Shown piece by piece: positions 152 to 31,947 of a stretch of DNA of 32,554 bases; positions within the stretch are counted from its first letter, which is position 1, and the number at the start of each line of letters is the position of its first letter. The translations under genes were made by a program, and so were the position numbers. Location of the stretch: IMG/VR virus record IMGVR_UViG_3300037575_000054, positions 1-32,554 of that record; one strand, 5' to 3'. The notes below the pieces were generated by a model. The model saw nothing but the letters and a program-made list of their open reading frames with translations, was not told the DNA's origin and did no database searches. The DNA comes from a virus.

Positions 152-223
152 GAAAAAAACCCTATCGGTGATTGATAGGGTTTATTTTGGGGGATGCGAG
201 GGCCATCAGGGCGGGGGTGTTCC
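152..223 (-). promoter_or_regulatory. Composite promoter/leader element, copy 1
   Basis: Minus strand: GGAACACC (216-223) just after the TAG stop of the gpI-like gene, then CAAAATAAA 26 nt further on. A perfect 10-bp inverted repeat (AAACCCTATC / GATAGGGTTT) follows, with a T tract, and the next ATG comes at once. The SD core AGGG sits inside the right arm. It looks like an intrinsic terminator fused to a start codon; I read it as a late promoter whose palindrome also hides the SD in read-through RNA. Confidence 0.6.
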
Positions 224-228
224 GCCAT

Positions 229-837
229 CTAAAAGGGCGAGAAGTTAGCCAAATGAAAGCGCTGTAAGGCCACGGCAACCTGTAATCCGTTATCTTCAGC
301 TTCAAATCCCACAGCTATCTCCGGTACGACCTGCCAGGGCACCAGTCTTGATAAAATCGGCGCTAATTCTGACAGCTCGGCCATATTAACTACAGAATCT
401 AGCTTAATGCGAATTCGACTTGTCAAAAAGCTATCTGAGGTTGGTTGCTCGTACAGGTAGTTAGGGTACCGGTCTGAGAAGTATTTTGAATGCCACAGTC
501 TGATAATCTCGTTTTGTTGGGGGTAGAGCATATCTAGGACAAATTGCAAGAATCCAAGGCCGCGCTCGCTTGCTAATGCCGACCAGTTGGCATAAATGAT
601 GCTCATAAGCTTGTCTGATAAGCCGCCATCCTCACGCCTAAGCACCGCCAATCCATTGAGCTTGGTAAAGCGCTCCACCACGGTGCGACTACCCTGCCAT
701 GGTGCGCCATAGTCAAATATTTCGGTAAGCTCGTCGTGCAAGTGCTCGGTGATCAAGTCCTTGAATATACCCGCCATTGCTCGCTCAAGCTCATCCGCTT
801 TATGGCTATGCTCAATAGTGCCTATGAATTCACTCAT
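229..837 (-). CDS. Tail protein I-like (gpI) baseplate protein
   Basis: A 202-residue protein, the usual size for P2 gpI-type baseplate/tail proteins. It directly follows the J-like gene with one base between them, the canonical W/J/I order of contractile-tail phages. The N-terminal half is helical, with an extended proline- and tryptophan-containing stretch (PWQGSRTVVERF) and a later SDRYPNYLYEQP region. The C-terminal third (about residues 140-202) is compatible with the beta-rich end of the family. The family call rests mainly on synteny and size and only secondarily on sequence. The TAG stop abuts leader copy 1. It probably shares a transcript with genes 839-3598. Confidence 0.6.
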   Translation of the reverse strand: MSEFIGTIEHSHKADELERAMAGIFKDLITEHLHDELTEIFDYGAPWQGSRTVVERFTKLNGLAVLRREDGGLSDKLMSIIYANWSALASERGLGFLQFVLDMLYPQQNEIIRLWHSKYFSDRYPNYLYEQPTSDSFLTSRIRIKLDSVVNMAELSELAPILSRLVPWQVVPEIAVGFEAEDNGLQVAVALQRFHLANFSPF

Positions 838-838
838 G

Positions 839-2606: not shown

Positions 2607-2615
2607 GCGAAAGCC

Positions 2616-3059: not shown

Positions 3060-3067
3060 ACCGACTC

Positions 3068-3598
3068 CTATGCCGCTGCCTGTTCTAGCGCCTGAGCAAG
3101 CCTCTCTTCTAGCTGCTTTTTCTCAGTCTCTTTAGTGGCGATGGTTTTATCAAGTTCCTTGATCTGCTCTAGTAGCTCGTTTCGCTGCTGAGCTTTATTC
3201 TTGGGCGCATTGGCACGTAGTGGCTTAACGCGAACCTTGGCTTGTTTTTTATTGAAGGCGTTTTGACCACGAACGATGAAGTGACCTAACGCATCGACCG
3301 ACGCATTAAAAGACGGCTTATAACTGTTGTCAAAATCACCTGATAGCGGTTGCTGCTTGCCGTTGATATCAATACGAAAGATATCTAGCTTGTCGTCATC
3401 AGAGCCCTCTGTACGCACATAGAGCTTAACCTTTTGACCATTCTCAAGGACGGCTTCAATTGGCTTTGCGCTTGCGCCAGACACGCGTACCACTTTTAGC
3501 ACGTTGACAATGGGGATGGCTTGTTTAGTGGCTTTGGCCAAACGATTGATGAATTCTTTAATCAATGGCGTCTTTTCGGTAACGTCAGATAGTTTCAT
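3068..3598 (-). CDS. Unrecognised phage protein with C-terminal coiled coil
   Basis: This 176-residue protein is not one I recognise. Residues 1-115 form a mixed alpha/beta domain containing AKATKQAIPIVNVLKVVRV, a GQKVKLYVR strand and a LDIFRIDINGK strand pair. Residues about 118-135 are lysine/arginine-rich (KKQAKVRVKPLRANAPKNK). Residues 136-176 are a strongly predicted coiled coil (RNELLEQIKELDKTIATKE and on) ending in poly-alanine. The gene follows leader copy 2 and opens the run toward the baseplate genes, so it is likely co-expressed with virion proteins, perhaps as an internal or accessory virion component. Confidence 0.6.
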   Translation of the reverse strand: MKLSDVTEKTPLIKEFINRLAKATKQAIPIVNVLKVVRVSGASAKPIEAVLENGQKVKLYVRTEGSDDDKLDIFRIDINGKQQPLSGDFDNSYKPSFNASVDALGHFIVRGQNAFNKKQAKVRVKPLRANAPKNKAQQRNELLEQIKELDKTIATKETEKKQLEERLAQALEQAAA

Positions 3599-3672
3599 AA
3601 AAAAATAACCCTAGCATGTAGATGATAGGGTTATTCTGACTGACTCTAGGTGCCTTATGGCTGGGGTGTTCC
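3599..3672 (-). promoter_or_regulatory. Composite promoter/leader element, copy 2
   Basis: GGAACACC at 3665-3672 (minus), then CAGAATAAC 26 nt on, overlapping a perfect 10-bp repeat (AATAACCCTA / TAGGGTTATT). A T run and the ATG of the 176-residue gene follow. The right arm supplies the AGGG core of the ribosome-binding site. A short region of stop-like triplets after the 3687 stop precedes the motif. Confidence 0.6.
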
Positions 3673-4572: not shown

Positions 4573-5949
4573 TTATTTAGTCACAGTCGTTTCAAAGAAT
4601 ACTTGTCGTGCACAGCCCTCTGGGCGGCGCGAGAATTTAATATCTACTTTCTCGAATGGGTTGTCAGCACGTGGGGTTACGCTTAGCACGTAGTATTTAC
4701 CACCAAGCTCTTCTGACTTCACAAAAAACCCTGCAGCCACGCAAGCATCCAAGGCGCGGTTAATCTCAGTTTGAGCATCACGGATATAGCTTTGCATGCC
4801 TTTAAGTAGATGCTTTTTAGCAATACCGACAACAAGGTTATCCGTAAACGTGACAATCTCAGCGGCGTTGGTTAGGCGTAGCGCACTGGTCTTGCTGTCA
4901 TATTGAGTTAACGCATCGCCATAAATCCAGCGGCTACCCGCATCGAACCGCTCATTCATAACGACGTTGATACCAGCCTCAGCCAGTGCATTCTGCGCCT
5001 CTTCATCAAGATTAACGCCGGGCAATCGTTCAGCATCACGAAAGCCCACTGGGAATTGGTAGCCTGCGACTGGACGGTTTAATGGCGGAATACCTGCTCC
5101 ATTAGTCTGAGCGTTGCGAAGTAAAGTCTGACCCAAAAAATCACCGAGACATGGACGCCATTTTTTGCGAGCCATAACGGTTGCTGCATTAGTCGGGCGT
5201 GACTTGTTAGGGTTCCAGAATAGCGATGCACGGTAGTCGTCAATGCTGATTGATTCAGCTAGGGCGACCGCTGCCTCCCAGTCTGTAATCTCGCCAATAT
5301 CAATAAGCAGGTGGCAGTTGAGCTTGTCCATAACCTCGGCCATCGCCTCAATCATGGGCAGGTTGTCAACTGTTGCGCATGCGATATAACGCGGGCGTTC
5401 CTGCATATCTAAAATCGATCGCTTGGCGTCAGCTGGAGTGGTGTCTACGACGACGGTAGCAGGCACCGCGATAACCAATTCATTGACGCGGTAAGCGCCT
5501 AGCGTATTTAACGCGCCAGCAGTTGTAAGGGCTGTCTTGACTGCCGCGGCGTCTGTGCTCTTATAAGCGGTTTCCACCTCTTCGAAGAAGTCGTCAGCGC
5601 CATCTAAGGCGCCCGTGAAGTCTAGCTTTTGGGCGATGTAGCTAAAGTCATTGGGGTAGCGCTGCTCTAGATCATCAATACCGCCGCCAGTATGCAGTCG
5701 ACCCTGCAAACGAGCGATAATGCTATTGTCGATTTTGTCAGCGAGGGTGATTTTAAAAATCAGGTTGTTTAAAGGGTCGTCTGTATTGGTGGGTGTCTTG
5801 TCATCAATGACACTAACTTTGGCTACGACGTTATCGTCAAAACCATACTCAGTGACCATCTTGATGCTCGCCAGCGCACCAGCGTCCGGCTCACTTGCAA
5901 GAGTGATGCCGCCAGCCGCTATATTGAGGGTGAGGGTCGTAGCTGCCAT
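4573..5949 (-). CDS. Tail sheath protein
   Basis: A 458-residue protein typical in size for contractile tail sheaths. The N-terminal half is a variable beta-rich region. The middle has the sheath core pattern: RPRYIACATVDN and an NCHLLIDIGE strand followed by the helix WEAAVALAESI, then the RASLFWNPNKSRP strand. The C-terminal third (INVVMNERFDAGSRWIYGDALTQY, then a VGIAKKHLLKGMQSYIRDAQT helix) matches the conserved sheath C-terminal domain that carries inter-subunit contacts. It polymerises around the tube and contracts on infection. Leader copy 3 lies immediately upstream. It heads the tail module 5949-229. Confidence 0.75.
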   Translation of the reverse strand: MAATTLTLNIAAGGITLASEPDAGALASIKMVTEYGFDDNVVAKVSVIDDKTPTNTDDPLNNLIFKITLADKIDNSIIARLQGRLHTGGGIDDLEQRYPNDFSYIAQKLDFTGALDGADDFFEEVETAYKSTDAAAVKTALTTAGALNTLGAYRVNELVIAVPATVVVDTTPADAKRSILDMQERPRYIACATVDNLPMIEAMAEVMDKLNCHLLIDIGEITDWEAAVALAESISIDDYRASLFWNPNKSRPTNAATVMARKKWRPCLGDFLGQTLLRNAQTNGAGIPPLNRPVAGYQFPVGFRDAERLPGVNLDEEAQNALAEAGINVVMNERFDAGSRWIYGDALTQYDSKTSALRLTNAAEIVTFTDNLVVGIAKKHLLKGMQSYIRDAQTEINRALDACVAAGFFVKSEELGGKYYVLSVTPRADNPFEKVDIKFSRRPEGCARQVFFETTVTK

Positions 5950-6022
5950 AAGAAAAAGCCTATACTATTGAGGTATAGGCTTAGTATAGATATAGATGCT
6001 TTGCAAGCTGTGGGGGTGTTCC
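5950..6022 (-). promoter_or_regulatory. Composite promoter/leader element, copy 3
   Basis: GGAACACC at 6015-6022 (minus), then TATACTAAG 26 nt later. The inverted repeat AAGCCTATAC / GTATAGGCTT (10 bp) begins inside that box and is followed by TTTTTC and the sheath ATG. The only SD-like core, AGG, is in the right arm. Confidence 0.65.
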
Positions 6023-6077: not shown

Positions 6078-6707
6078 CTACAATCTTTGTTTAGCGCACC
6101 GATTGCCTACAGCTCCTGATTGAGGTCTATCGTTATCAATAGGCGGGTACTTGCAGCTTATTTGTTCAAATCGCGCGCCATTTCGCAAACATTGAGTTAT
6201 AAAGTCGCCGTCATCGCGACGACCTACATCCCGGTATCTTGCCGGGCCGTACATGGATTTTGTCACGCCTATCCTTCCGCTACGGCCATCATTGCGCCAT
6301 TCTGACTGTTTGGTTACAAGTATCGTATTTTCACCTAAGTTCAATAGAGCGTCGTTTAATTCATCATCAACAAAATTATCAGCATCCAGGTTAAATAAAA
6401 CTCTCCCGGTAGCTAGTGTGTGAATGATGTGCTTCACCGGGCCGCATGACCAGGTGCTTCCGTCCGCAAAAACCTTTTTTTCGTTATGCTCGAATACCTT
6501 TAATCGCCCATCGTTAATATATTGGCCGTAGTGCTTTTTCAGGTAGGGCGCTACATCAGCGTCATTGTAAGACAACACGCATAAGTCCACGCTGCCGACT
6601 TTCGTGTAGCGCAGGTTGTGGTCTATGGTTTGCACCAATTGCCACAATCGACCGTGGCAAGTGGTGCAATAAGATACATCCATTGTTGACAGCATGATTC
6701 TATTCAT
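6078..6707 (-). CDS. Glycosyltransferase-like protein (GT-A fold, DxD motif)
   Basis: About 209 residues from the ATG at 6707. The N-terminus (VSYCTTCHGRLWQLVQTIDHNL) resembles the nucleotide-sugar-binding start of family 2-type glycosyltransferases. VDLCVLSYNDADV follows, then the metal-binding motif RVLFNLDADNFVDD, and GRRDDGDFITQCLRNGARFEQI toward the C-terminus, an acceptor/base-type region. The start overlaps the upstream gene's stop (ATGAATAG), suggesting translational coupling. An upstream extension of the frame lies inside the preceding gene, so the shorter start is preferred. It may glycosylate a virion protein, host envelope or nucleic acid; the target is not shown. Confidence 0.65.
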   Translation of the reverse strand: MNRIMLSTMDVSYCTTCHGRLWQLVQTIDHNLRYTKVGSVDLCVLSYNDADVAPYLKKHYGQYINDGRLKVFEHNEKKVFADGSTWSCGPVKHIIHTLATGRVLFNLDADNFVDDELNDALLNLGENTILVTKQSEWRNDGRSGRIGVTKSMYGPARYRDVGRRDDGDFITQCLRNGARFEQISCKYPPIDNDRPQSGAVGNRCAKQRL

Positions 6708-7395
6708 CTGGTTTTTGCAATCTAAATCTAATCGTGCCATCTGGATCAATGACGGCGGCGTTTTCACCATAGACTAAATCAGTGTATTTTCTCTGCTCAT
6801 CACTAGGATAGAGCTTGACATACATAACCTCTGTAGATTGCGGGTAGATATAAAACGTACCCTCTGAATCTGAGTAGAAAACCATATGCTCACTAAGGGG
6901 TTTTGTACCCGTTCCCGTATCTTCATCTAACATATCTAAACTAAGGCTCTTATCTTCATTAAAAATAACGCCATTCACCTCTAGTTTAAACTCCATCAAC
7001 GTTCGGTTGCTAGTCCAACCTTCGGGGGTCAGCCAATAGTTTTTAAGACTCATGTCGTGCTGAATTTCAAGATCCGACCCATCATCCACGCCACCACCGC
7101 CACCACCGCCACCGCCAATACCGGCGCTACTACCAACACGGCGAACCATAACGCTAGATACGCCGCTTTTCAACGTATCCTCTACGACTGTGTAGCTCGG
7201 GTTGGTTGGATCATAGCCTAGTAAAGCTTGGTAGTTGTTTCGCGCAACTCTGAATGGCTTGTCTAGCCGGCCGCGCTTAAAACGACCTATGATCAGTGCC
7301 GCGCTGGTGCTGGGCGGGGCCGTCGACTCGGTCTTGTCGACCACAGCTTGTCTTTGAATACCGACCGCGGCGCCTAGTGTTTTGGATTCAATCAT
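6700..7395 (-). CDS. Sheath-like N-domain protein with glycine linker and extra C-terminal domain
   Basis: 231 residues. Residues 1-90 are a close paralogue of the neighbouring 92-residue protein (shared TLGAAVGIQR, GRFKRGR, DKPFRV, NYQALLGYDP, VEDxLKxGVS). The pattern resembles the N-terminal domain of contractile sheath proteins (GRF...P..V...Y..LLGYD...Y..VED...GV..V.VRRVG). A run of nine glycines (about 96-104) links it to an unrecognised beta-rich C-terminal domain (about 110-231). The start at 7395 is chosen because it aligns with the paralogue and sits on leader copy 4. It could be a small tail or decoration protein. The paralogy is directly visible; the function is not. Confidence 0.6.
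   Translation of the reverse strand: MIESKTLGAAVGIQRQAVVDKTESTAPPSTSAALIIGRFKRGRLDKPFRVARNNYQALLGYDPTNPSYTVVEDTLKSGVSSVMVRRVGSSAGIGGGGGGGGGVDDGSDLEIQHDMSLKNYWLTPEGWTSNRTLMEFKLEVNGVIFNEDKSLSLDMLDEDTGTGTKPLSEHMVFYSDSEGTFYIYPQSTEVMYVKLYPSDEQRKYTDLVYGENAAVIDPDGTIRFRLQKPDE
7085..7115 (-). repeat. Trinucleotide repeat encoding a nine-glycine linker
   Basis: The plus strand reads repeated ccacc/gcc triplets that encode consecutive glycines on the minus strand within the sheath-like protein. It is a short simple-sequence tract whose length can change in steps of one residue without breaking the frame. It marks the junction between the duplicated N-domain and the C-terminal domain. Confidence 0.7.
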
Positions 7396-7467
7396 AATAA
7401 AAGCCCATACTTGTTTAGGTATGGGCTTAGTGTATCTTTGATAAGATGGGTTTTCTTGAGGTGTTCC
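7396..7467 (-). promoter_or_regulatory. Composite promoter/leader element, copy 4
   Basis: GGAACACC at 7460-7467 (minus), two bases after the TAG of the 92-residue gene. TACACTAAG follows 25 nt on and runs into the 10-bp repeat AAGCCCATAC / GTATGGGCTT, then TTTATT and ATG. The palindrome is closely related to that of copy 3 (sheath). Confidence 0.6.
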
Positions 7468-7469
7468 TG

Positions 7470-7748
7470 CTAACCGGTGGCTGCGCCTGTGCGACAGACC
7501 CAAATCTCGCTAACGCCTTGTTTTAGCGCGTCCTCCACAGCGTTGTAATTGGGGTTCGCTGGGTCGTAGCCCAGCAATGCCTGATAGTTGCTACCAGTAA
7601 CCCTGAATGGCTTATCTGTGCGCCCGCGCTTGAATCGCCCAACAATTAGCCCGTTGTCCGCAGATGGAAGCGAGGTGGATTCCGTTTTATCGATAACGCC
7701 TGATCGTTGTATGCCAACGGCGGCGCCTAAAGTTTTAGTTTCTACCAT
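7470..7748 (-). CDS. Short sheath-N-domain-like protein (paralogue of the 7395 gene)
   Basis: 92 residues starting MVETKTLGAAVGIQR. It is roughly two-thirds identical to the first 90 residues of the downstream 231-residue protein but stops where that one enters its glycine linker. The domain resembles the N-terminal part of phage tail sheaths. Each copy has its own GGAACACC leader, so gene and leader appear to have duplicated together. It may be a stand-alone structural cap, or a decayed or exchangeable copy. No frameshift remnant of the C-terminal domain was noticed after its stop. Confidence 0.6.
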   Translation of the reverse strand: MVETKTLGAAVGIQRSGVIDKTESTSLPSADNGLIVGRFKRGRTDKPFRVTGSNYQALLGYDPANPNYNAVEDALKQGVSEIWVCRTGAATG

Positions 7749-7822
7749 GAGAAAGGCCTGTACTGGTGAAGGATATGGATTTATTTTAGGGGTAATTCGG
7801 GGTTACGGCTTGGAGGTGTTCC
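7749..7822 (-). promoter_or_regulatory. Composite promoter/leader element, copy 5 (degenerate palindrome)
   Basis: GGAACACC at 7815-7822 (minus), then TAAAATAAA exactly 26 nt on, and an ATG about 32 nt after the end of that box. The palindrome is mostly lost: AAATCCATATCC and GTACAGGCCTTT pair poorly. The two sequence boxes are therefore kept where the hairpin is not, which suggests that the boxes are the selected part. Confidence 0.5.
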
Positions 7823-7893: not shown

Positions 7894-8355
7894 TCAGTCA
7901 AGAATCTTCAGTGTCTTGCCGCGGGTGATATTCATCTGCTTGATATTGCGGACAATCTGGTCTTTATCTACATGAGCAGGAATATTGACCGTGGTTGTCT
8001 GCTTAGCCTTGAGTAGTGCGCCGGTTGCAGTCTCTAGAACATTGTAGGGACCGCTGTTTTCAATCTTGATAGATGCTTTATCTGAGATTGCTGTGCCCTG
8101 TGCATCAGCATCAGCATCAGCATCAGCATCAGCATCAGCATCAGCATCAGCAGGATCGTTGGTGAATGCAATACCGTTATTACTCATATATCGCCAGACC
8201 AACTTATCCTTGGTGTCATTGGCTAGATAATTGCCTTCGCCGAGCATTTCGTGCAACTTGTCATTGGTTGTTTCCGATTTAATCTTTTTAAAACTATCGG
8301 TTTCCGCCAATTTCTCTAAGTTACTTGGGGCGTCTTTTAAATTACTCGTGGTCAT
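7894..8355 (-). CDS. Unrecognised phage protein with an Asp-Ala dipeptide repeat
   Basis: 153 residues from the ATG at 8355 (AAAGGA ribosome-binding site), preferred over an upstream in-frame start because that one overlaps the capsid gene's terminator. Residues about 10-55 are lysine/glutamate-rich and helical. Residues about 70-90 consist of alternating Asp-Ala encoded by a hexanucleotide repeat. The C-terminal 60 residues form a compact domain (YNVLETATGALLKAKQTTTVNIP, then QIVRNIKQMN). It sits just downstream of the major capsid gene and behind its terminator, a common place for decoration or head-completion genes. No family recognised. Confidence 0.6.
   Translation of the reverse strand: MTTSNLKDAPSNLEKLAETDSFKKIKSETTNDKLHEMLGEGNYLANDTKDKLVWRYMSNNGIAFTNDPADADADADADADADADAQGTAISDKASIKIENSGPYNVLETATGALLKAKQTTTVNIPAHVDKDQIVRNIKQMNITRGKTLKILD
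8102..8152 (-). repeat. GCATCA hexanucleotide tandem repeat (8 full units)
   Basis: Plus strand GCATCA repeats eight times plus a partial unit, coding for Asp-Ala pairs on the minus strand. All units appear identical, consistent with recent expansion. Copy-number change would lengthen or shorten the linker by two residues per unit and keep the frame. Confidence 0.85.
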
Positions 8356-8383
8356 AATATTGTCCTTTAGGTTGTATTGAATA

Positions 8384-8418
8384 TAAAAAGACCTTGCTGC
8401 CAAAGGCGACAGCAAGGT
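8384..8418 (-). terminator. Intrinsic terminator after the major capsid gene
   Basis: Minus strand ACCTTGCTG and CAGCAAGGT form a 9-bp stem followed by TCTTTTTAT, about 30 bases after the capsid stop. The downstream gene starts at 8355 with its own AAAGGA site, so some read-through or a separate promoter is needed. Confidence 0.75.
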
Positions 8419-8448
8419 TAGGAAAAACAATGAAGCCTTGCTAGCCGA

Positions 8449-10260
8449 TTACATTGTTGGCAAGTTAATCATCTCGATTAGCATGCACTGGTTGGCAAAG
8501 CGTGGAATTGGGTTAGGCTCGGCAGCCTGGCGACTATAAACCGCAACGTCTTTTTCAAACGCATTGATATTAGACGCAAGTACCATTGGCGGCACGGCCA
8601 CATGACCAACAAACGGTGCATGAGCTGGGCTAGTAGGACGTGGAACCATTAGAGCGTAAGCGCCATTGGTTAAGCTGTCTTCGTTGAATACGCCCATAGC
8701 TTTTGGCACGTAGTAAACGTTAGCGCCGGTATTTAAGCGGCCAATGCGGTAGATGCTGTATGGGTCGCCATAAGCCTCACCAGTTGGCGTGTAAGCATTG
8801 CCGGTTAAGCCCTCAAAGAACCCTGCACCATTGTCGCTGACATACAGGTCATAAGCGCCAATGCCAAGCTTGATAGCGTTAGATAAAGCGGTACGCGCCT
8901 TGCCTAGTGTCATGCGGATGCCACCAAACATATCTTGGACAGTGTTATAAGTAATACCGGCCTTGATTGGGTCAAACGTGACTACGCGATTATCGCTATC
9001 AGCTAAGCAGCGGTTAACAGCCCAGCGAAGTAGGCGGCCGTTTTGCTCGTAGTAGTACTTCTGCATCGTGATCATTTGCACAACGCCGTACCAGTTCAGG
9101 TTCAGCTCGTTTGCCATCTGAGTAATAGCATCGATAGTCGCTGAGCTGCGTGAACGGTGCGGGTGCGCATAGACGCCATGATGAGCAAAGCCCATGTCAA
9201 CGCCAGGCGCTTTTAGCAGGTAGTTGCCATCATCGTCTTTGCGCTCGTAGTCAAAGATTAAATCAACTTCTACGTCATCAGCACCCGGCTCTACGCCATC
9301 AGTGATGTCAAACTGCACAGTGACAGTATGGTCATCAAGGTCGGCTTGGGCTGAGGTTACGATGTACTTATTAGCACCGATAGTGACTTCTTTTTGCGTA
9401 GGCTGCAGCGTGCTGATGCCAGTCGTGGTTGGGTGATTGCGATGCTTGTCATTAGCAACCTCAACGCCTTTGACGAATACAGCAACACGGCCACCTAAGA
9501 ATGGGGCTGCTTTTGACGCTTCGTCTACAACAAACTTGGTAGTCTTGTTTGTACGTACAGCGGCGGTATAGCCAACACGTGAATTCAGAGTAAACTCGCC
9601 AGCATCGCCCTTGGTCATCGTCAATAAATGACGGTTTTCAAGGTATGGCATGCCAGCTTGTGCGCCATCAATTGCTTCACCGCGTGAGAATACGCCCATC
9701 TGCATGCTGGCATTAACTTCGCCAGATATCAATGGCACTTCGTTTGAGCCAGTTGGGTTGGGCAGCATGGCAACAAGCGGTAGGCTGTTAGCGATACCGT
9801 AAGAGATGACGACTTGAGTAGCCGCTGGTACTACTGACAACGCTTCATGATGTGAGAATGACAAGCTATCGAACGTTTGACCGTCAACAGTGGCGTCATC
9901 AGGGCGGTTTTCAGTAAAGACTACAGCTTGCTGGATAGCACCAAGCACGACTTCAGCTGATGGCATCTCACCACCGTTACGACGCTGATATTCGGCAATA
10001 CCGATGTTTAAGCCATCAAAGACCTTTTGCTTTTGCTCATCTTCAGGAAAATACTTAGACTCAAGCAAGTTGGTCAAAGCTTTTGGCATGTCACCCATAG
10101 CGGCTTCGCGGCCCTGTGGATGCTGAGCTAGCATTGAGTCGAATGTAGCAACATCGCCGGTCGTCTTGCCAAGATTCTCATAACGCTTTAAAAGCTGAGC
10201 TGTCTTATGCTTTTCGGTACCAACAATATCGGTATAACTTTTAACTTTGGATTGATCCAT
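8449..10260 (-). CDS. Probable major capsid protein
   Basis: 603 residues with no transmembrane segment or catalytic motif. It has a charged helical N-terminus (about 1-130) and a long beta-rich core. Segments typical of HK97-fold capsids include LNWYGVVQMITMQKYYYEQNGRLL (spine-helix-like), a TYNTVQDMFGGIRMTLGKARTAL segment, AYDLYVSDNGAGFF and a C-terminal domain. It is a monocistronic unit: a terminator precedes leader copy 6 upstream and a strong terminator follows, as expected for the most abundant virion protein. The N-terminal 130 residues could be a scaffolding or delta domain removed by proteolysis. The assignment is by position and general character, not by a diagnostic motif. Confidence 0.6.
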   Translation of the reverse strand: MDQSKVKSYTDIVGTEKHKTAQLLKRYENLGKTTGDVATFDSMLAQHPQGREAAMGDMPKALTNLLESKYFPEDEQKQKVFDGLNIGIAEYQRRNGGEMPSAEVVLGAIQQAVVFTENRPDDATVDGQTFDSLSFSHHEALSVVPAATQVVISYGIANSLPLVAMLPNPTGSNEVPLISGEVNASMQMGVFSRGEAIDGAQAGMPYLENRHLLTMTKGDAGEFTLNSRVGYTAAVRTNKTTKFVVDEASKAAPFLGGRVAVFVKGVEVANDKHRNHPTTTGISTLQPTQKEVTIGANKYIVTSAQADLDDHTVTVQFDITDGVEPGADDVEVDLIFDYERKDDDGNYLLKAPGVDMGFAHHGVYAHPHRSRSSATIDAITQMANELNLNWYGVVQMITMQKYYYEQNGRLLRWAVNRCLADSDNRVVTFDPIKAGITYNTVQDMFGGIRMTLGKARTALSNAIKLGIGAYDLYVSDNGAGFFEGLTGNAYTPTGEAYGDPYSIYRIGRLNTGANVYYVPKAMGVFNEDSLTNGAYALMVPRPTSPAHAPFVGHVAVPPMVLASNINAFEKDVAVYSRQAAEPNPIPRFANQCMLIEMINLPTM

Positions 10261-10349
10261 CGGGATGCGTCCTATTCAGTGAGAAAGGTATGGGTAACTG
10301 ATAGGACTAATGTTAAATCTGCCATGTATGGGCCATATGGGGGTGTTCC
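10261..10349 (-). promoter_or_regulatory. Composite promoter/leader element, copy 6 (major capsid)
   Basis: GGAACACC at 10342-10349 (minus), directly after a separate terminator. TAACATTAG follows 26 nt on, overlapping a stem GTCCTATcCAGT / ACTGaATAGGAC (7 + 4 bp). AGGA in the right arm lies about 9 nt before the capsid ATG. Because a true terminator already lies upstream here, the element is unlikely to exist only for termination. Confidence 0.6.
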
Positions 10350-12185: not shown

Positions 12186-12470
12186 TTACCTCCCAGTCTG
12201 AATATGCACTTTACGGATTTGCATCAAATCACGTGGCAGCGGCAGGTAAATATCACGACTTGGCAGCGGCTCTGATATACGGTTCGTGCCAGCACACAGC
12301 ATGACAATATCCGCATAGTCACGGTTGCCATACACCCTATGGGCAATTAGCGTGGGGTCGTGAACCTCGTCACTCCCCACACGCCAAATAATCACTTGGT
12401 CGGTGCGCCCACGCCTAACCAGTAGGTCAACGTGGGCGCGAATGTCGTTGTGGTAAGTATTGGCTATCAT
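12186..12470 (-). CDS. Small baseplate protein, gp53/LysM-like
   Basis: 94 residues. The core HDPTLIAHRVYGNRDYADIVMLCAGTN, then a short loop and IYLPLPRDLMQIRK, matches the pattern of small baseplate wedge proteins related to T4 gp53 or LysM-type tail proteins: a helix starting at a 'YG' turn, then a hydrophobic helix ending in N, then 'LP'. The start overlaps the tail-fibre gene by 4 nt. It is likely a structural adaptor in the baseplate periphery. Confidence is moderate because the family is short and divergent. Confidence 0.5.
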   Translation of the reverse strand: MIANTYHNDIRAHVDLLVRRGRTDQVIIWRVGSDEVHDPTLIAHRVYGNRDYADIVMLCAGTNRISEPLPSRDIYLPLPRDLMQIRKVHIQTGR

Positions 12471-14725: not shown

Positions 14726-14797
14726 AATATCCTACACTAAGTATTCAAAGTTAACTTAGTGTAGGGGTTTAGGGGTAGTGCAATGATTGGGTGTTCC
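14726..14797 (-). promoter_or_regulatory. Composite promoter/leader element, copy 7 (tail fibre)
   Basis: GGAACACC at 14790-14797 (minus), one base after the TAG of the 14799 gene. TACACTAAG follows 26 nt on and lies wholly inside the left arm of a perfect 12-bp palindrome (CCTACACTAAGT / ACTTAGTGTAGG). The right arm ends in TAGGA, the SD, 6 nt before the ATG. This copy shows the overlap of -10-like box, palindrome and SD most clearly. Confidence 0.7.
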
Positions 14798-16285: not shown

Positions 16286-16399
16286 AGTCCGCCCGAAACC
16301 CAACGTTGTTGTTGCTGTTCGCGCGCGAGTTATTGTAGTTGACGCACCAGACACCGGCGTTAGAACTGTTGTTCCAGTTACCGCCGACGATAGGGCACA
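16286..16399 (-). repeat. DGR template repeat (TR)
   Basis: Aligns with the variable repeat at 16856-16972. The minus strand is rich in AAC/AAT codons (in the VR frame: ...GGNWNNSSNAGVWCVNYNN..., ...ANSNNNVGFRAD). Of about 27 adenines, 19 are replaced in VR, and I found no replacement at C, G or T inside the repeat. The 3' end holds a 17-nt adenine-free tract identical in VR (16289-16305), a candidate IMH-type homing signal. The short reading frames that cross it are not genes. Confidence 0.93.
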
Positions 16400-16424
16400 C
16401 ACATATTAAGACGACTCCCCAAAC

Positions 16425-19576: not shown

Positions 19577-19640
19577 AATAATTAGCCTCTAGTTGCCCTC
19601 TATTTTAGTGGGCTTGCCAGCAATGATTCCGCGGTGTTCC
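19577..19640 (-). promoter_or_regulatory. Composite promoter/leader element, copy 8 (DGR operon)
   Basis: GGAACACC at 19633-19640 (minus), one base after the terminase TGA. TAAAATAG follows 25 nt on. The palindrome is weak (GCCC / GGGC with a loop), and GAGG lies about 11 nt before the ATG. It drives, by inference, the whole adhesin-DGR operon and so ties DGR expression to structural genes. Confidence 0.55.
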
Positions 19641-23567: not shown

Positions 23568-23651
23568 TAAAAAACCCCTTACACGGTAGGCATAATATTA
23601 GTTATGCGTTAAGTGTAAGGGGCTAGGTGGTTGCTAGAGCTGTGGTGTTCC
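23568..23651 (-). promoter_or_regulatory. Composite promoter/leader element, copy 9
   Basis: GGAACACC at 23644-23651 (minus) overlaps the last base of the preceding TAG stop. TACACTTAA lies 26 nt on. A double palindrome follows: outer CCCCTTACAC / GTGTAAGGGG (10 bp), inner GCATAA / TTATGC (6 bp). The outer left arm covers the -10-like box; the outer right arm is the AAGGGG SD, 7 nt before the ATG. If transcription starts about 7 nt after the box, the RNA begins with the inner hairpin and frees the SD. Confidence 0.7.
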
Positions 23652-24136
23652 TAGTTGCTCATAAGCTCAATGCGTGCGCTTAGCACCGCATGATAAGCAT
23701 CCATGGCAATCTTCTGATTTTTCATAAGGTCCCATTGCTGTTGGTCAACAAACATAGGCTTATCTTTAGCTAGAAATTCCGCTAGCTTATCAAGGCGTTC
23801 TGTCAGCTCTGCACGCTCTATAGTCATGCGTTGCAACGGTCTGGTCATATTGAGTTGCTTTGGCTGTGGCTCTGCATCATAGGTCTTGTTAAAAATACCT
23901 GGCTTGCATGGGTAAAACTCACCATTGACGCCTTTGATGATGTAGTCGCCATGATTGGCTGTCATAGCGCCTTCTAGTGTCTGTATTTTCACAGATGAGG
24001 GTGCGCTGCCTGTGGGCATATGATAACTAGGGCGATATTCAAATGCTTCATACGGCATAAAGCCGTCAACCGACTGTAGCGTGCCATCAAATTGTACAGC
24101 CTCAATCACCACTGGTTTCTTGCGATATTTATTCAT
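23651..24136 (-). CDS. Phage protein combining two common phage modules
   Basis: 161 residues from the ATG at 24136 (AGGTGA site 6 nt upstream), preferred over a TTG start inside the terminator hairpin. Residues 1-85 match a widespread phage domain: KYRKKPVVIEAVQFDG, an IQTLEGAMTANHGDYIIKGVNGEFYPCKPGIF segment, then KTYD. Residues about 95-160 match another recurring phage pattern, helices with MTIERAELTERLDKLAEFL, then QQWDLMKNQKIAMDAYHAVLSARIEL. Both occur in phages as separate genes, so this looks like a fusion. Neither has an established function known to me. Confidence 0.65.
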   Translation of the reverse strand: MNKYRKKPVVIEAVQFDGTLQSVDGFMPYEAFEYRPSYHMPTGSAPSSVKIQTLEGAMTANHGDYIIKGVNGEFYPCKPGIFNKTYDAEPQPKQLNMTRPLQRMTIERAELTERLDKLAEFLAKDKPMFVDQQQWDLMKNQKIAMDAYHAVLSARIELMSN

Positions 24137-24249
24137 AGCGTCACCTATATTCGCCGTCACCAAAAACAAGAAGGCCGCCAGCGGGTGACGTCACTGACGG
24201 CCTATACTTATTATCAGGGATTGCTAGGTTTCCGCGACCAAGGTGTTCC
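24137..24249 (-). promoter_or_regulatory. Composite promoter/leader element, copy 10 (with separated SD)
   Basis: GGAACACC at 24242-24249 (minus), then GATAATAAG 26 nt on. A strong hairpin GGCCGTCAG / CTGGCGGCC (one G-T pair) with TTCTTGTTTTT lies at 24162-24202. Unlike other copies, the SD (AGGTGA) is 25 nt further downstream, outside the palindrome. Here the hairpin looks like a plain terminator or attenuator after the promoter-like box. Confidence 0.55.
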
Positions 24250-25557: not shown

Positions 25558-25562
25558 ATTGT

Positions 25563-26343: not shown

Positions 26344-26673
26344 TCAGTCATCCCCCTCAAGCTCATTAAGCAAGCGCCCATACTTCGATTTTAGCCCATT
26401 CGGTATATTTTCGAAGTTAGAGTTAATGGCTTCTATATACAGGCGGCGTAGCTCTCTGTTTTCCGTGCTTAAGGCCACTAGCTCTTCCGCCATATTCTGC
26501 AACCCTTCGTCAGCAGCGACTTCGCCGCCAGCATCGCTAAGACTATCCTCTAGGCGTGCGACAATATCCGCATTCATCGAGCGGTTATGACTCTTGGCTG
26601 ACCTCTTAATACTATCCCTAAGCTCTTCGCTTAAACGAAGTTGATATTGCACGGTTGTATGCTGGTCGCTCAT
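26344..26673 (-). CDS. Arc-family ribbon-helix-helix regulator
   Basis: 109 residues. Residues 8-50 fit the Arc-type ribbon-helix-helix fold: the beta strand TVQYQLRLSEE, helix A LRDSIKRSAKSHNRSMNADIVARLEDSL with the SMNADIV turn typical of Arc/Mnt. The remaining residues form a second helical region (LQNMAEELVALSTENRELRRLYIEAI), possibly for oligomerisation. It is transcribed away from a second, smaller ribbon-helix-helix gene across an operator region. By analogy with the P22 immI region it would repress the antirepressor side. Family assignment is strong; operator choice is inferred. Confidence 0.8.
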   Translation of the reverse strand: MSDQHTTVQYQLRLSEELRDSIKRSAKSHNRSMNADIVARLEDSLSDAGGEVAADEGLQNMAEELVALSTENRELRRLYIEAINSNFENIPNGLKSKYGRLLNELEGDD

Positions 26674-26701
26674 ATGAAAATCCGGTTAAAAACAATATTT
26701 A

Positions 26702-26788
26702 ATATCCACTGGGTGTTGACAAGTAAAAGATGCAGGCGTACCATTAGAAGCATATCCAGTGGATAGGTATTATCAATCTACTGGATAT
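26702..26788 (+). promoter_or_regulatory. Divergent immunity operator region with three related sites
   Basis: Three related sites: ATATCCACTGG (26702-26712), ATATCCAGTGGAT (26752-26764, near-palindromic), ATCTACTGGATAT (26776-26788, inverted). The rightward promoter has -35 TTGACA at 26716-26721 and -10 TACCAT at 26739-26744 (17-nt spacer). The leftward promoter seems to use overlapping TTGTCA on the other strand. The sites flank the rightward promoter, as expected for repression by a ribbon-helix-helix protein. Confidence 0.65.
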
Positions 26789-26824
26789 ATAGTAACTCAA
26801 ACCCTTAAACAAGGAAACTTGCAT

Positions 26825-27001
26825 ATGTACCCAAGTCGTTTATTACCCCAGTTAAACCTTCGTTTTAGCTCGCAAGAAATGAAAGATTGGATAGCAGAAC
26901 AGGCTAAAATCAATCACCGAACATTAACCGCTGAAATCAACTACCACATTGAAAAAGCAATGATTAAGCAGCAGGAGGAGTCAAGCGATGCTGCAAATTG
27001 A
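26825..27001 (+). CDS. Small Arc/Mnt-like ribbon-helix-helix protein
   Basis: 58 residues from the ATG at 26825, supported by AAGGAAAC 6 nt upstream; an upstream in-frame start at 26759 would put translation inside the operator sites. LLPQLNLRFSSQEMKDWIAEQAKINHRTLTAEINYHIEKAM fits the compact ribbon-helix-helix fold with almost nothing else. It is the first gene of the rightward operon and overlaps the next gene by 14 nt. It likely binds the adjacent operators, possibly opposing the leftward Arc-like protein, like the Arc/Mnt pair of P22. Confidence 0.75.
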   Translation: MYPSRLLPQLNLRFSSQEMKDWIAEQAKINHRTLTAEINYHIEKAMIKQQEESSDAAN

Positions 27002-27578
27002 ATTAGTATCAATCGAAAATGAAGTTCCCAAAACCACGTCATTAGTCGTCGCTAAGTTTTTTGGTAAGCGTCACTCTGATGTACTAAGGGCAATATCCAA
27101 GCTTGATTGTTCAGAAGAATTTAGTCAACGCAATTTTGCGTTAGTAATAGAATCAATGACTTACATCGATAGTAATGGGGGTTGTCAGAATAAAACCACA
27201 AAAAGAGCCGGTCATTACAGTATGACCAAAGACGGCTTAATATTTCTGGTCATGGGCTTTACAGGTAAGCAAGCAGCCAAACTAAAGGAGGCTTACATAA
27301 ATGAATTTAATAGAATGAGCGATGTTCTTAACCAGCGTCAGAACAGCTTAATGTACCAGTATAACAAAGTGTCTATCGCTTATGACGCAGCCACAAGGAA
27401 TGCCAGTGACGCAGGTAGAGCGTTGGCAGTGCTAGGAAAGCAGATTAAACCTGATTTACAAGAACGCTTAGAGCAACTAGAGCAGAAAATGCAGCTGGTG
27501 CTAAATTTTGACAATAAAAAAGCAGACCTCACCCACCAAGATGAAATGTCTGCCAACTTACTAATCAAAGGAAACTAA
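26988..27578 (+). CDS. Rha-family phage regulatory protein
   Basis: 196 residues. The N-terminal 110 residues show the Rha pattern: TTSLVVAKFFGKRHSDVLRAISKLDCSEEFSQRNFALVIESMTYIDSNGG, then GHYSMTKDGLIFLVMGFTGKQAAKLKEAYINEFNRM. The C-terminal part is a coiled coil (ERLEQLEQKMQLVLNF). AGGAGG precedes its ATG by 7 nt inside the upstream gene. Rha proteins occur in lambdoid phages and interfere with phage growth in IHF-deficient hosts; function is usually regulatory. It is part of the rightward immunity-like operon. Confidence 0.85.
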   Translation: MLQIELVSIENEVPKTTSLVVAKFFGKRHSDVLRAISKLDCSEEFSQRNFALVIESMTYIDSNGGCQNKTTKRAGHYSMTKDGLIFLVMGFTGKQAAKLKEAYINEFNRMSDVLNQRQNSLMYQYNKVSIAYDAATRNASDAGRALAVLGKQIKPDLQERLEQLEQKMQLVLNFDNKKADLTHQDEMSANLLIKGN

Positions 27579-27579
27579 C

Positions 27580-28359
27580 ATGAATGCTTTAACCTTTAAC
27601 GATGTTAATTTTAACCCAGTTGAACAGAATGGTCAAATCTGGCTAACGTCTAGTGAACTTGCGAAAGCGCTTGGTTATGCAGACCACACTGGCGTTAATA
27701 GAGCTTTCAATCGAAACAAAGACGAATTCACCCCAAGCATGACTCAGCTTGTTGAAATCAACGAGGAGGTCAAATCGACCTACTCGTCTAAAACAAAGGG
27801 CTTGGCGGCAAAAACCCGTATATTTTCACTGCGCGGCTGTCATTTAATAGCAATGTTCTCGCGCACCAAAATAGGTAAGAAGTTTAGAAAGTGGGTACTG
27901 GATATCTTGGATAAAGAAGTGGGTATGCCTGTGCAAAAAGAAGTAGGCATGCCTATGCAAAAAGACCTACTCACTCCAGAGCAAACTCTACCTCTTCGCA
28001 ATGCTGTAAACACTCTCGTGACAAGAGCAGGAATAATGTACCCAGAAGCGTACAAAATAATTCACCAAAAGTTTACAGTTAATCATATTAAGGAGCTGAC
28101 AGTAGAGCAAGTACCAGAAGCCGTAACCTACATCCACTGGTTAACAATGACTGCTAACACCCGCAATCATGCTAACCAAGTAAATGCAGAGAATGCCCAT
28201 GCTTTAGCTGTACACATGAATAACTGTGCCGATTGGTTCGATGCTGTCAGAGAACCTTTATCACAACTGAACCCGCAGCTAACCAGCTCCATCTCCGGAC
28301 AGTTCTATGAGGGCAGGTCTACAGCCAGACTGGTTCGGAGGGAGTTGGTTTCTGGATAG
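27580..28359 (+). CDS. BRO-N antirepressor-like protein
   Basis: 259 residues. Residues 1-110 form a BRO-N/Ant domain: FNPVEQNGQIWLTSSELAKALGYADHTGVNRAFNRN, then RIFSLRGCHLIAMFSRTKIGKKFRKWVLDIL. A short repeat follows (KEVGMPVQ / KEVGMPMQ, residues about 113-127). The C-terminal part (LTPEQTLPLRNAVNTLVTRAGIMYPEAYKIIHQKF, ELTVEQVPEAVTYI) resembles the P22 antirepressor or ORF6C-type C-domain. It would inactivate the prophage repressor. It starts after the Rha stop with AAAGGAAA upstream and ends before a convergent terminator. Confidence 0.82.
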   Translation: MNALTFNDVNFNPVEQNGQIWLTSSELAKALGYADHTGVNRAFNRNKDEFTPSMTQLVEINEEVKSTYSSKTKGLAAKTRIFSLRGCHLIAMFSRTKIGKKFRKWVLDILDKEVGMPVQKEVGMPMQKDLLTPEQTLPLRNAVNTLVTRAGIMYPEAYKIIHQKFTVNHIKELTVEQVPEAVTYIHWLTMTANTRNHANQVNAENAHALAVHMNNCADWFDAVREPLSQLNPQLTSSISGQFYEGRSTARLVRRELVSG

Positions 28360-29059: not shown

Positions 29060-29081
29060 ACCCTAAAACTCCTCAATAAAA

Positions 29082-29465
29082 CTATTGACCGGTATTGTAT
29101 TTACCGTCAGACATATATTGAACAATATCGCCATCATGCAAGTAAAACTTAACTGCCGACAAGGCGCACGTTATGGTTATTCGCTTGTCGTCAAACCCAT
29201 CACACGCATCCAACTGCGCCTTATAAATCTCCATGGCGTAAAGAGTCTTGTCCGAATGATTGCCAGCCAGCTTATGATAGGCGCTATAAGCATCAGTCAT
29301 ACATAGGTAGACCTCGCCATCGTAATTAGCAGAACTTGAGCACCGAGCAAAGCTACGATCGATATCGCCCTTGGTTGTAGCTGCACTGACCTGGCTGCCA
29401 GCCATTAGCCCAGCCGCCAAACTAACCCCAATACCTATCTTGGCCAAGACCACCCGTAATTGCAT
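29082..29465 (-). CDS. Small secreted cysteine-containing protein
   Basis: 127 residues, signal peptide MQLRVVLAKIGIGVSLAAGLMAGSQVSA with cleavage at VSA. The mature part has four cysteines (ARCSSS, LCMTDA, DACDGF, ITCALS), suggesting two disulfides. The pattern C-x(11)-C-x(3)-Y and later D.C vaguely resembles the LprI/DUF1311 type of small secreted inhibitors; I do not rely on that. Its start lies 44 nt inside the end of the virion hydrolase gene. It shares the KIGIGVSL/RMGVGVSL signal-core type with the 29059 gene, so the two may be diverged relatives or share a signal module. Confidence 0.6.
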   Translation of the reverse strand: MQLRVVLAKIGIGVSLAAGLMAGSQVSAATTKGDIDRSFARCSSSANYDGEVYLCMTDAYSAYHKLAGNHSDKTLYAMEIYKAQLDACDGFDDKRITITCALSAVKFYLHDGDIVQYMSDGKYNTGQ

Positions 29466-31875
29466 GTGCTATCCCTCTGTCTGATACATTTTGACTAATC
29501 GTATCATTATTTGCCTGAATGATGATAGGCTTTTGCCCACCACTGTCGAGTCGCTGAGAAACCTTAGGCATCGTTGGGAACTGCAGTAGCTTGCTTATTG
29601 GCAAGTTAGGTAGCGGCGTGCTGAAGTTGGTCGCTGCAGGTGCAAAGCTATTGCCAGGCTGAGCCATGCCCCCCAAGCTAAATCCTGTGGCGCTGCTGGT
29701 TGGCTTGGCCTTGCTTGTTGTCCCAGTATTAATAACATAATTAGAGTTCACCGCTTCCGCCATATCAGCTCGCTTCGCCCTTTCTCCAAACTTGTCTTCT
29801 GGTCTTTCATAATACTCTGATACTATCGAGCCTGCCTGTGCTGCAGTTGTTGCCTTTCTCAGCCTGTCACCCGCAGCCTTCTCCTTGCCTTTAGTCAGCT
29901 CGAAGTTCGTAAACTCTAACTGCTCCTCAAAGCTAGAGCCTTTTAGGTTTTTCTTATACTGATTTTTGAAATCATTCTGTCTGGGTGGGTGCCATTGACC
30001 TATCCCAACCGCCTTCCCGCCGTCTCCAGTGCGACTCCCTGATATCACATCCTCATCAAAATAACCACTCTCTCTCTGCAGATTAGCCACAAGCCCAGCG
30101 GCCTGCTCCTTTGTCCATCCCTTCTTCATGAAAAAGCTCATAGCCTGTGCTGTTCGTGCATTACTACTAGCACCTTTTGGAGCTACAGCAGCCGGCTTAA
30201 TATCCCTATAAAGCTTGTATTGCAAATTTTCATCAGCAATATCGCCCCACGGATTCCTACTCTTTTGCTTGAAATCCGATACCCATTGTTCACCGTTATA
30301 CATCTGAATATGTCCAGCCGAGTGCTTTCCTTGCGCAGGCATAACCATAATGTCGCCCTTTTGAGGTGCGGCATTAGGGTCAATATTAGTAAAACCAGCA
30401 TCCACTAAAGCTCCATTGCCATACTGATAAGCAAACTCTTGAGTCTTTAAGTCATACCCAGCTTCCTGCAGACCCTTCCGGACAAACTTAGCGCAATACC
30501 CAGATGATTTCTCAAGCGCGTTCTGGGTTATCAAGTCAGCAGCCTTGTTTGCTTTTGCCGTAACCCCCGCTCCTAGCCCTTCATCGTCATTGGTAATGCC
30601 CAAAAAGTCACCAGCTGCTCTTAGCTTCCGCTCAATCCAAGACCCCATCTGAGTACCGATATCGCCAAGCTTGGTAAAGAAGGGCTTCATGCCTCCTTCC
30701 CAGACGCCCTTCATCTTGTCAGCCAGATTATAGTTTTTAAGCGAAGTGGTCCAACTCTCAATATAAGGCGATGCGGTCGTGCCCAACCACTCACCACCCT
30801 CGCTACCAAGCCACGCTCCAAGTGCACCGCCAACTACAGTACCAACGCCTGGGAATATCATAGTACCCAAGGCTGCACCAGCCAAAGCACCCCCACCACC
30901 GCCCGCCAGAGCACCAACTCCGCCCGACTTGCCAGCATGGTCCATATCGCCCCAATTCATAGCAAGGTCAGCCACGCCAGCAAGCGCCGCTATAGGACCC
31001 AAGAATTTCATGCTTTTAAGCTTACCAAGCCCGCCAAGCAGACTCTTTCCACCCTTGCCAAGCAATCCAGCGCCAGCACCCAGTAAGCCTGCGAGTCCAG
31101 CGCCTGCGCCTAGTGCACCACGCCCAAGCAAGCCACCAAGCCCAATACCTCCGCCCGAGCGTCCGCCTCGCATTAACTGACGCAATATTTTGGTTAGTAG
31201 CTTTTCATTGTTGCGGTTATGACGCTCCTCATCTCGTGGCAATGGTTCGCGCCTCTTCATGGACTTAAACTTACTCCATGACCATTTGACAGCACGACCG
31301 GCCATGCCAGCCCCACGGGTGACTGGTGATAAAAGGCTTTTTGCTTCGTTCAAGCTATCGACTAATGGATCGACGCCTTGTGCACTACCCACGCCTCCAC
31401 CATGCACGCCAGCATGACTACGCAAGCTCTTTAATAGACTCTCATCGCTAGAGCGGCTACGACCGCCCACAAAGCGTCCGTTTTCGTCACGCTCCCTTGG
31501 GGTATTACCTCTAGTGCTATTGGGTGATGTGTTGGTAGTAGTAGGACTTGGGGACGCCCTGTGATTAGGCGCTCTACGTGTGACGCCTCGCAAGGTGCTA
31601 TCGCTATTTGATGTGTTGCTAGATGATGTTCGAGTAGGGCCCTGCCCTGATGGGCTAGTGTTGGCGCTATTACGCGTTCGCCCAGTGGTGTTTCTCTGAG
31701 CAATGCGTTCGGCGTTACTTGCCACCCGCGCCATGCGAGTATTGGCGATTTGATTTTGCGCTTTTAGAATCTTGATGATTTCTTGAGTATCATCGCTCAG
31801 AGCTTTCATACCGCTCTCTAATTGTGCTGAGCCGACGATAAAGCCTTGTTCATCATAGTTGAGTATAGTTGCCAT
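29422..31875 (-). CDS. Tape-measure-like virion protein with CHAP-like and lysozyme-like domains
   Basis: 817 residues. About 60-145 is low-complexity Ser/Thr/Arg. About 235-365 is glycine/alanine-rich and hydrophobic with membrane-like helices (LLGAGAGLLGKGG, ALAGAALGTMIFPGVGTVVGGALGAWLG), typical of tape-measure or DNA-ejection proteins. About 445-560 is CHAP/NlpC-like, with Cys461 in SGYCAKFV and His522 in SAGHIQMYNG as the probable catalytic pair. About 575-700 resembles the tail-tip lysozyme family: AMSFFMKKGWTKEQAAGLVANLQRESG with Glu602 as the likely acid, then GIGQWHP. It would puncture peptidoglycan during DNA delivery. The size is short for a full tape measure. Confidence 0.75.
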   Translation of the reverse strand: MATILNYDEQGFIVGSAQLESGMKALSDDTQEIIKILKAQNQIANTRMARVASNAERIAQRNTTGRTRNSANTSPSGQGPTRTSSSNTSNSDSTLRGVTRRAPNHRASPSPTTTNTSPNSTRGNTPRERDENGRFVGGRSRSSDESLLKSLRSHAGVHGGGVGSAQGVDPLVDSLNEAKSLLSPVTRGAGMAGRAVKWSWSKFKSMKRREPLPRDEERHNRNNEKLLTKILRQLMRGGRSGGGIGLGGLLGRGALGAGAGLAGLLGAGAGLLGKGGKSLLGGLGKLKSMKFLGPIAALAGVADLAMNWGDMDHAGKSGGVGALAGGGGGALAGAALGTMIFPGVGTVVGGALGAWLGSEGGEWLGTTASPYIESWTTSLKNYNLADKMKGVWEGGMKPFFTKLGDIGTQMGSWIERKLRAAGDFLGITNDDEGLGAGVTAKANKAADLITQNALEKSSGYCAKFVRKGLQEAGYDLKTQEFAYQYGNGALVDAGFTNIDPNAAPQKGDIMVMPAQGKHSAGHIQMYNGEQWVSDFKQKSRNPWGDIADENLQYKLYRDIKPAAVAPKGASSNARTAQAMSFFMKKGWTKEQAAGLVANLQRESGYFDEDVISGSRTGDGGKAVGIGQWHPPRQNDFKNQYKKNLKGSSFEEQLEFTNFELTKGKEKAAGDRLRKATTAAQAGSIVSEYYERPEDKFGERAKRADMAEAVNSNYVINTGTTSKAKPTSSATGFSLGGMAQPGNSFAPAATNFSTPLPNLPISKLLQFPTMPKVSQRLDSGGQKPIIIQANNDTISQNVSDRGIAHAITGGLGQDRYWG

Positions 31876-31947
31876 AAGAGTGCCTTAAATGAGCGTTTAT
31901 GGCCTAAATTATGGCACTCAAGGGGGTTCTGACTGGCTCGGTGTTCC
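31876..31947 (-). promoter_or_regulatory. Composite promoter/leader element, copy 11
   Basis: GGAACACC at 31940-31947 (minus) after the microprotein stop. CATAATTTAG follows 26 nt on. The palindrome GAGTGCC / GGCACTC brackets this box, with AAGG of the SD next to the right arm, 7-10 nt before the ATG. The left arm lies entirely upstream of the predicted start point, so a locally started RNA cannot form this hairpin. Confidence 0.6.

Follow-up and report, generated by a model that had tools for sequence, protein, structure and literature searches.

Introduction

Several phages encode activators of promoters that lack a good -35 element. These include Ogr of P2, whose site lies near -55 and has a dyad, C of Mu, with a site near -35, and CII of lambda, with TTGC repeats around -35. 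The T4-like phages RB49 and phi1 reportedly carry PeSL cassettes, i.e. small repeated intergenic units of a promoter and a stem-loop terminator, which Comeau et al. are said to have described in 2010 beside adjoining modules that are duplicated or shuffled. The promoters of these cassettes are said to be early sigma70 promoters and, to our knowledge, neither an activator site at -46 nor a Shine-Dalgarno sequence (SD) in the 3' arm has been described for them. In T4, early read-through RNA of the genes e, soc, 49 and I-TevI hides the SD or AUG in a hairpin, while the late promoter lies in the 5' arm of this hairpin and the late RNA is translated (PMC3014915, PMC2988022). In gene transfer agents, GafY/GafZ and GafA are phage-derived activators that contact RNA polymerase components and turn on the structural gene cluster (PMC11150451). 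Here, we analyze a viral stretch of 32,554 nucleotides (IMG/VR record IMGVR_UViG_3300037575_000054; hereafter, the window), in which the 8-mer GGAACACC and a -10-like box recur together ahead of late genes. We suggest, with a probability of about two in three, that these elements are sigma70-type late promoters activated by an XRE-family helix-turn-helix (HTH) protein, and that many of them include a hairpin that would act as a gate against read-through.

The 32.5-kb window is a viral contig and probably a fragment of a larger phage genome. Its minus-strand genes fit phage families (terminase, baseplate wedge, tail fibres, tail length/lysin and the capsid-like phrog_1014), and the phage looks like a temperate-type, contractile-tail phage of Psychrobacter/Moraxellaceae. 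Among annotated relatives, the temperate Acinetobacter phage vB_AbaM_ABMM1 (ABMM1; terminase 54%, capsid 31%) is the nearest; IMG/VR contigs and prophages of Psychrobacter and Moraxella are closer. A megablast search of the first 25 kb against phage records gave no match.

Results

GGAACACC is present in 11 copies in the window, all on the minus strand, compared with 0.55 copies expected from shuffles (at most three in 100 shuffles), a 20-fold excess over chance. Allowing one mismatch adds two places on the plus strand and six on the minus strand. A preliminary description of this DNA had given the coordinates and strand of all copies correctly (Table 1), and its statement that every copy is intergenic holds. 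So do its counts for the box, which begins 26 nt after the 8-mer in nine copies and 25 nt after it in two (7460 and 19633), and its finding of an invariant A at box position 2 and T at position 6 (11/11). From the consensus TANAMTAAG that it had proposed, we retain TANAMT, in which position 4 is A in 10 of the 11 copies; the AAG tail is loose, and the full consensus TANANTAAG is matched exactly by only three of the 11. The description had also placed every copy at most ~15 nt downstream of a stop codon or terminator. This applies to seven of them, as copies 216, 3665, 7460, 14790, 19633 and 23644 lie 0-14 nt past a stop (the end of an open reading frame, ORF) and copy 10342 comes after a terminator. 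It is too strict for copies 6015, 7815, 24242 and 31940, which lie approximately 55, 71, 80 and 101 nt past a stop, respectively; ahead of copy 24242 there is a T-rich, terminator-like stretch. From GGAAC to the start codon the distance is 64-89 nt in most copies, and ~113 nt for copy 24242 if its gene begins at an internal ATG. The gene starts come from a mechanical assignment and may be incorrect in a few cases, such as that of the gene after copy 24242.

If the box is read as a -10 element (-12 to -7), GGAACACC falls at -46 to -39, the position of a class II activator site, and no -35 element is visible ahead of the box. The predicted +1, i.e. the base 12 nt past the box start, was not used in choosing sites. 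Among 68 Acinetobacter/ABMM1 sites, 82% have an A there (1.25 bits), as do 60% of 51 Psychrobacter/Moraxella sites, and the base before it is most commonly T. The A at this position supports the assignment of the box as a -10, as originally proposed. Thus, a -10 recurs at a fixed distance from an upstream site in the absence of a -35, and the elements lie upstream of late (structural) genes on the same strand. In other words, the 11 elements look like sigma70-type late promoters without a -35 and with a putative activator site at -46 to -39.

GGAACACC often lies just past stop codons and just ahead of terminator-like hairpins, and could in principle act as RNA, within the 3' end of the preceding transcript, in antitermination or termination in a nut/put-like manner, with the box as the start of the terminator. 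However, the fixed distance to TANAMT and the A at +1 have no role in such a model, and some copies come after a separate terminator or have no hairpin. We therefore consider this explanation very improbable. An Rfam scan of the window gave no known RNA family.

The exact 8-mer was searched in 13 related phage contigs (G001-G005 and G007-G014) and is confined to one strand in 11 of them (e.g. 8/0, 0/12 and 0/9). G005 has one copy on each strand, and the Moraxella boevrei contig (G012) has none but contains GGAAC with the box. In host chromosomes, the 8-mer is roughly equal on both strands. The preliminary description would have been contradicted by an 8-mer equally frequent within genes and on the other strand genome-wide, which is not the pattern in these phages. 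In all complete relatives, GGAAC with the box is intergenic and on the late strand, with 0-1 cases on the opposite strand. In ABMM1, GGAACACC is absent, but GGAAC precedes late genes and is followed by the same box at the same spacing. In G004 (64-78% DNA identity in aligned blocks), three copies are kept at the same places with a different spacer sequence. In two sets of Psychrobacter/Moraxella sequences, a spacer of 28-29 nt between GGAAC and TANANT occurs 14 and 33 times (47 in total) on the terminase strand, while any other spacing gives 0-2 cases and the opposite strand 0-1. Intergenic GGAAC is biased to one strand in Psychrobacter/Moraxella (54 vs 2) and in Acinetobacter prophages (72 vs 0), and balanced between strands in distant phages of beta- and gammaproteobacteria (10 vs 7 and 14 vs 13). 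The spacing, the strand bias and the conservation across relatives together define GGAAC-N28/29-TANAMT as the conserved core. Sites of the Psychrobacter group typically have the ACC tail, and those of Acinetobacter typically have TT ahead of GGAAC.

The rule for picking sites fixes two box positions, and these two are no evidence in the logos of the relatives; moreover, sites in related phages are not fully independent, some contigs being near duplicates. Most of the 83 matches in a pattern scan of IMG/VR are chance occurrences within genes of unrelated AT-rich phages, and the true relatives among them are L017/L004, L019, L029/L005 and L052. No paper describing the motif was found in a search of open-licence papers, a scope that makes this weak evidence, and the ABMM1 paper does not mention promoters.

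The preliminary description had left the choice between an undescribed activator and an undescribed sigma factor for the late regulon. Late promoters and an activator candidate (see below) are in line with our data, while a new sigma factor has become less likely: because the box resembles a sigma70 -10, an activator is the likelier solution, and no sigma-like gene is common to these phages. GGAAC is also the core of the RpoE-type -35 GGAACTT (PMC12153292), and a phage-encoded or host alternative sigma factor might contact it directly. Such a factor is improbable because the distance from GGAAC to the box peaks sharply at 28-29 nt rather than at 16-17 nt, the box is of the sigma70 -10 type and is accompanied by an A at +1, and the regulator that these phages have in common is an XRE protein, not a sigma factor. 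The Acinetobacter extracytoplasmic function (ECF) factor SigAb reads GTCAAC/CGTT, and together with the spacer length this led us to reject an ECF promoter of the RpoE/SigAb kind.

The search for an activator gene outside the window that had been proposed leads to a candidate in relatives, beyond the window edge. The activator is most likely an XRE-family HTH protein of phrog_7396, the gene for which lies directly ahead of the late region and encodes a protein of ~230 amino acids. It is the only early-region gene present in every compared motif-bearing relative that covers this region, ABMM1 included. In the close relative G001, it lies at 35474-36169 on the minus strand, just past the point where the window ends, and in relatives the homologue of the last gene of the window directly follows it. 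All four XRE proteins checked match PHROG 7396, which has no annotated function; Pfam HTH_3 scores above the cut-off in two of them, at the cut-off in ABMM1 and below it in G001, the nearest to the window. Based on this N-terminal HTH_3 domain, the protein was counted as a member of the XRE family. Among 299 Moraxellaceae genomes searched, 24 have the XRE gene. With 15-20 kb downstream taken, 16 of 20 XRE loci have intergenic GGAAC plus box on the XRE strand, and only three have it on the opposite strand, one each. By contrast, 11 records with related terminases outside Moraxellaceae gave no XRE match; among them, Xanthomonas phage Rb1 has genes in common with the window phage but neither the GGAAC site nor the XRE gene.

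In two phages, L313 and L314, the site itself differs. Their sites read GGAATA in an unchanged layout (intergenic, 7 vs 3 and 8 vs 1 by strand), and intergenic GGAAC occurs once and not at all, respectively. Their HTH is the most diverged (undetected and 31%, vs 40-45% for Psychrobacter/Moraxella), and helix 3 has forms such as ANRVSELESGN in place of NRISEIENGK, whereas their terminase is 60% identical to that of ABMM1, compared to 54% for the Psychrobacter phages. Because GGAATA is found where the HTH and not the terminase is most diverged, the site appears to go with the HTH and not with the remainder of the phage.

The link between XRE gene and site is one of genomic association, and the site has no dyad. 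Hence, the GGAAC promoters might be served by a host protein or another phage protein, with the XRE protein as a mere neighbour, e.g. a repressor of its own operon. This is rather unlikely given that distant phages with a related terminase but without XRE are also without the site, that base 5 of the site differs in the phages with the most diverged HTH, even though their terminase is nearer to ABMM1 than that of the Psychrobacter GGAAC phages, and that no other early gene is present in all.

Between box and start codon, many copies have predicted hairpins; these were overlooked in the preliminary description. Base-pair probabilities peak between -12 and +3 for the 5' arm and, relative to the ATG, between -14 and -6 for the 3' arm, i.e. 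on the SD. Folding is better for full leaders than for shuffles, and truncation at +1 largely removes the hairpin. Accessibility of the start region is higher in RNA begun at +1 at 46 of 50 and 65 of 70 sites (111/120). Pairing between the arm and the SD zone amounts to 6.9 bp for 71 starts with a site vs 3.0 bp in shuffles; for 97 intergenic starts without a site, the values are 2.9 vs 3.0 (p=4e-8). In the orthologous tape measure protein cassettes of G004, G009 and G011, the -10 pairs with the AUG itself, with sequence changed on both sides. Thus, predicted pairing of the SD or AUG in read-through RNA, with a 5' arm upstream of the start site, as in T4, is found in many copies but not all. 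Judging from this pairing, the hairpins may act in vivo.

Several hairpins have a T run and look like intrinsic terminators. All of them could be ordinary terminators of upstream genes that lie near promoters for compactness and have no effect on translation. We find this doubtful because 88 of 124 are without a T run, yet the excess of arm-to-SD pairing is strong and is absent at other intergenic starts, and because, in some copies, it is the AUG that the -10 pairs with. The same hairpin could act both as a terminator and as a gate.

Table 1. Copies of the element in the window, their predicted hairpins, and the gene next to the candidate activator gene in relatives.
Feature	Position (strand)	Box	Predicted +1	Gene and remarks	Predicted hairpin (5' arm/3' arm)
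Copy 1	GGAACACC 216..223 (-)	184-189	177	Gene starting at 151, runs off window	151..183 (-); terminator-like ACCCTATC/GATAGGGT + T7; 5' arm just past box, 3' arm = SD, T run ahead of ATG
Copy 2	GGAACACC 3665..3672 (-)	3633-3638	3626	Gene 3068-3598	AATAACCCTA/TAGGGTTATT + T run reaching ATG
Copy 3	GGAACACC 6015..6022 (-)	5983-5988	5976	Gene 4573-5949 (tail-sheath-like)	AAGCCTATAC/GTATAGGCTT + T5
Copy 4	GGAACACC 7460..7467 (-)	7429-7434	7422	ORF from 7395; 25-nt spacer	AAGCCCATAC/GTATGGGCTT
Copy 5	GGAACACC 7815..7822 (-)	7783-7788	7776	Gene 7470-7748	
Copy 6	GGAACACC 10342..10349 (-)	10310-10315	10303	Capsid-like gene 8449-10260; own terminator just upstream	GTCCTAT/ATAGGAC, hides AGGA; without T run
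Copy 7	GGAACACC 14790..14797 (-)	14758-14763	14751	Tail collar/fibre gene 12467-14725	Box = 5' arm: TACACTAAGT/ACTTAGTGTA adjoining SD AGGA
Copy 8	GGAACACC 19633..19640 (-)	19602-19607	19595	Gene 19253-19576, by position fibre/DGR genes next; 25-nt spacer	
Copy 9	GGAACACC 23644..23651 (-)	23612-23617	23605	Gene 22638-23567, by position genes up to terminase	TTACAC/GTGTAA adjoining SD AGGGG; kept in G004
Copy 10	GGAACACC 24242..24249 (-)	24210-24215	24203	Gene 23651-24169, ATG probably at 24136	
Copy 11	GGAACACC 31940..31947 (-)	31908-31913	31901	Tail lysozyme/tape-measure-like gene 29422-31875	Box CATAA pairs with TTATG of start codon; stronger versions in G004, G009, G011
Last window gene	32049..32543 (-)			Homologue in relatives directly follows XRE/HTH candidate gene	
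DGR, diversity-generating retroelement.

A short tail-sheath-like module (~92 amino acids; 6700-7822) is present in two tandem copies in the window and in several in G001 and G007. Each window copy has its own GGAACACC cassette, which suggests that cassette and gene are shuffled together. The DGR at 15127-18212 comprises a reverse transcriptase (15127-16209), Avd (16425-16808) and a target protein (16809-18212), with a template repeat (16307-16399) and a variable repeat (16880-16972) that are 82% alike. The DGR lacks a separate GGAACACC and seems to belong to the unit of copy 19633. Inside the late region, a small block at 26344-28359 with two Arc-like genes, a Rha-like regulator and an anti-repressor is partly on the plus strand and without a late element. 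The gene at 7894-8430 has a run of Asp-Ala repeats (DADADADA...) and is diverged in G001. The terminase genes of G004 (L096:5572-7536) and ABMM1 (L006:682-2673) are interrupted at residue 64-65, in the Walker A motif, by an insert of ~140 amino acids that seems to end in HN and is probably a mini-intein; the window terminase has none.

Discussion

Based on this analysis, we suggest a model for the late regulation of this phage group. In this model, host RNA polymerase with sigma70 would read the TANAMT -10 at -12 to -7 and start at +1 without a -35. Initiation would require an activator at GGAAC(ACC), at -46 to -39, which is most likely the phrog_7396 protein. The segment between about -12 and +3 would, in many copies, double as the 5' arm of an RNA hairpin with the SD or the start codon as its 3' arm and, in some cases, a U tract behind it. 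RNA that reads through from upstream would fold into this hairpin and either terminate or be untranslatable, while RNA begun at +1 would be without the 5' arm and could be translated. As a consequence, each late unit would be expressed only when its own promoter is activated and fires. In a temperate phage, this arrangement may serve to prevent expression of structural and lysis genes from transcripts that begin at host or early promoters and read through.

Several observations weigh against this model. The hairpins are not universal: at least three predicted bp are found at 8 of 11 sites in the window, 17 of 37 in Psychrobacter/Moraxella and 42 of 70 in the Acinetobacter group. A T run follows the hairpin in 36 of 124 cases, which suggests that some hairpins are also terminators. 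The XRE gene itself lies outside the window, and the co-change of HTH and site comes from two phages. A site without a dyad is unusual for a dimeric XRE protein. The AlphaFold2 (AF2) model of this protein, an HTH with long helices, is weak (predicted local distance difference test, pLDDT, of 65) and matches only generic XRE domains in the PDB (C.BclI, ImmR and lambda repressor); thus, the structure is uninformative on the mechanism. Finally, two Moraxellaceae XRE loci (L310 and L311) are without a nearby terminase and without GGAAC plus box; their phrog_7396-type homologues may be prophage remnants or have another use.

We see roughly even chances for a broader proposal, namely that phrog_7396 represents an undescribed family of XRE activators that run the late regulon of temperate phages, with promoters that are self-cancelling leaders and insulate units from host, prophage and neighbour read-through. 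Our observations suggest a role for a phage protein family without known function and identify the probable late promoters of a prophage group that is found across Moraxellaceae, Acinetobacter included. The model predicts that transcription starts 46-47 nt from GGAAC and depends on XRE. The co-change of HTH and site would represent a natural orthogonal pair for specificity.

The design resembles described systems in its parts. As in T4, the promoter lies inside the 5' arm of a hairpin at the ribosome-binding site, here by predicted pairing. However, T4 has this gate at few genes and uses the late sigma factor gp55 and TATAAATA, whereas in the window phage many late units would have it, in combination with a GGAAC site, a sigma70-type -10, probably an XRE activator, and sometimes also a terminator. 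A T4 late promoter proper was rejected, as the box is TANAMT with GGAAC at -46; because the T4 box and sigma factor are absent, the element would work like the T4 gate without being a member of the T4 late-promoter family. PeSL cassettes likewise combine a repeated intergenic promoter and a stem-loop beside duplicated or shuffled modules, but reportedly have early sigma70 promoters rather than late GGAAC-type promoters. With GafY/GafZ, the system would share a dedicated phage-derived activator of structural genes, here a candidate; however, the GafY element lies at ~-120 with IHF, and GafZ is an anti-terminator (PMC11150451). P2 Ogr, Mu C and lambda CII differ from the candidate system in protein family or site position. 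Thus, we suggest that the promoter-in-hairpin gate, known from T4, may here be a design of the whole late region and not an exception.

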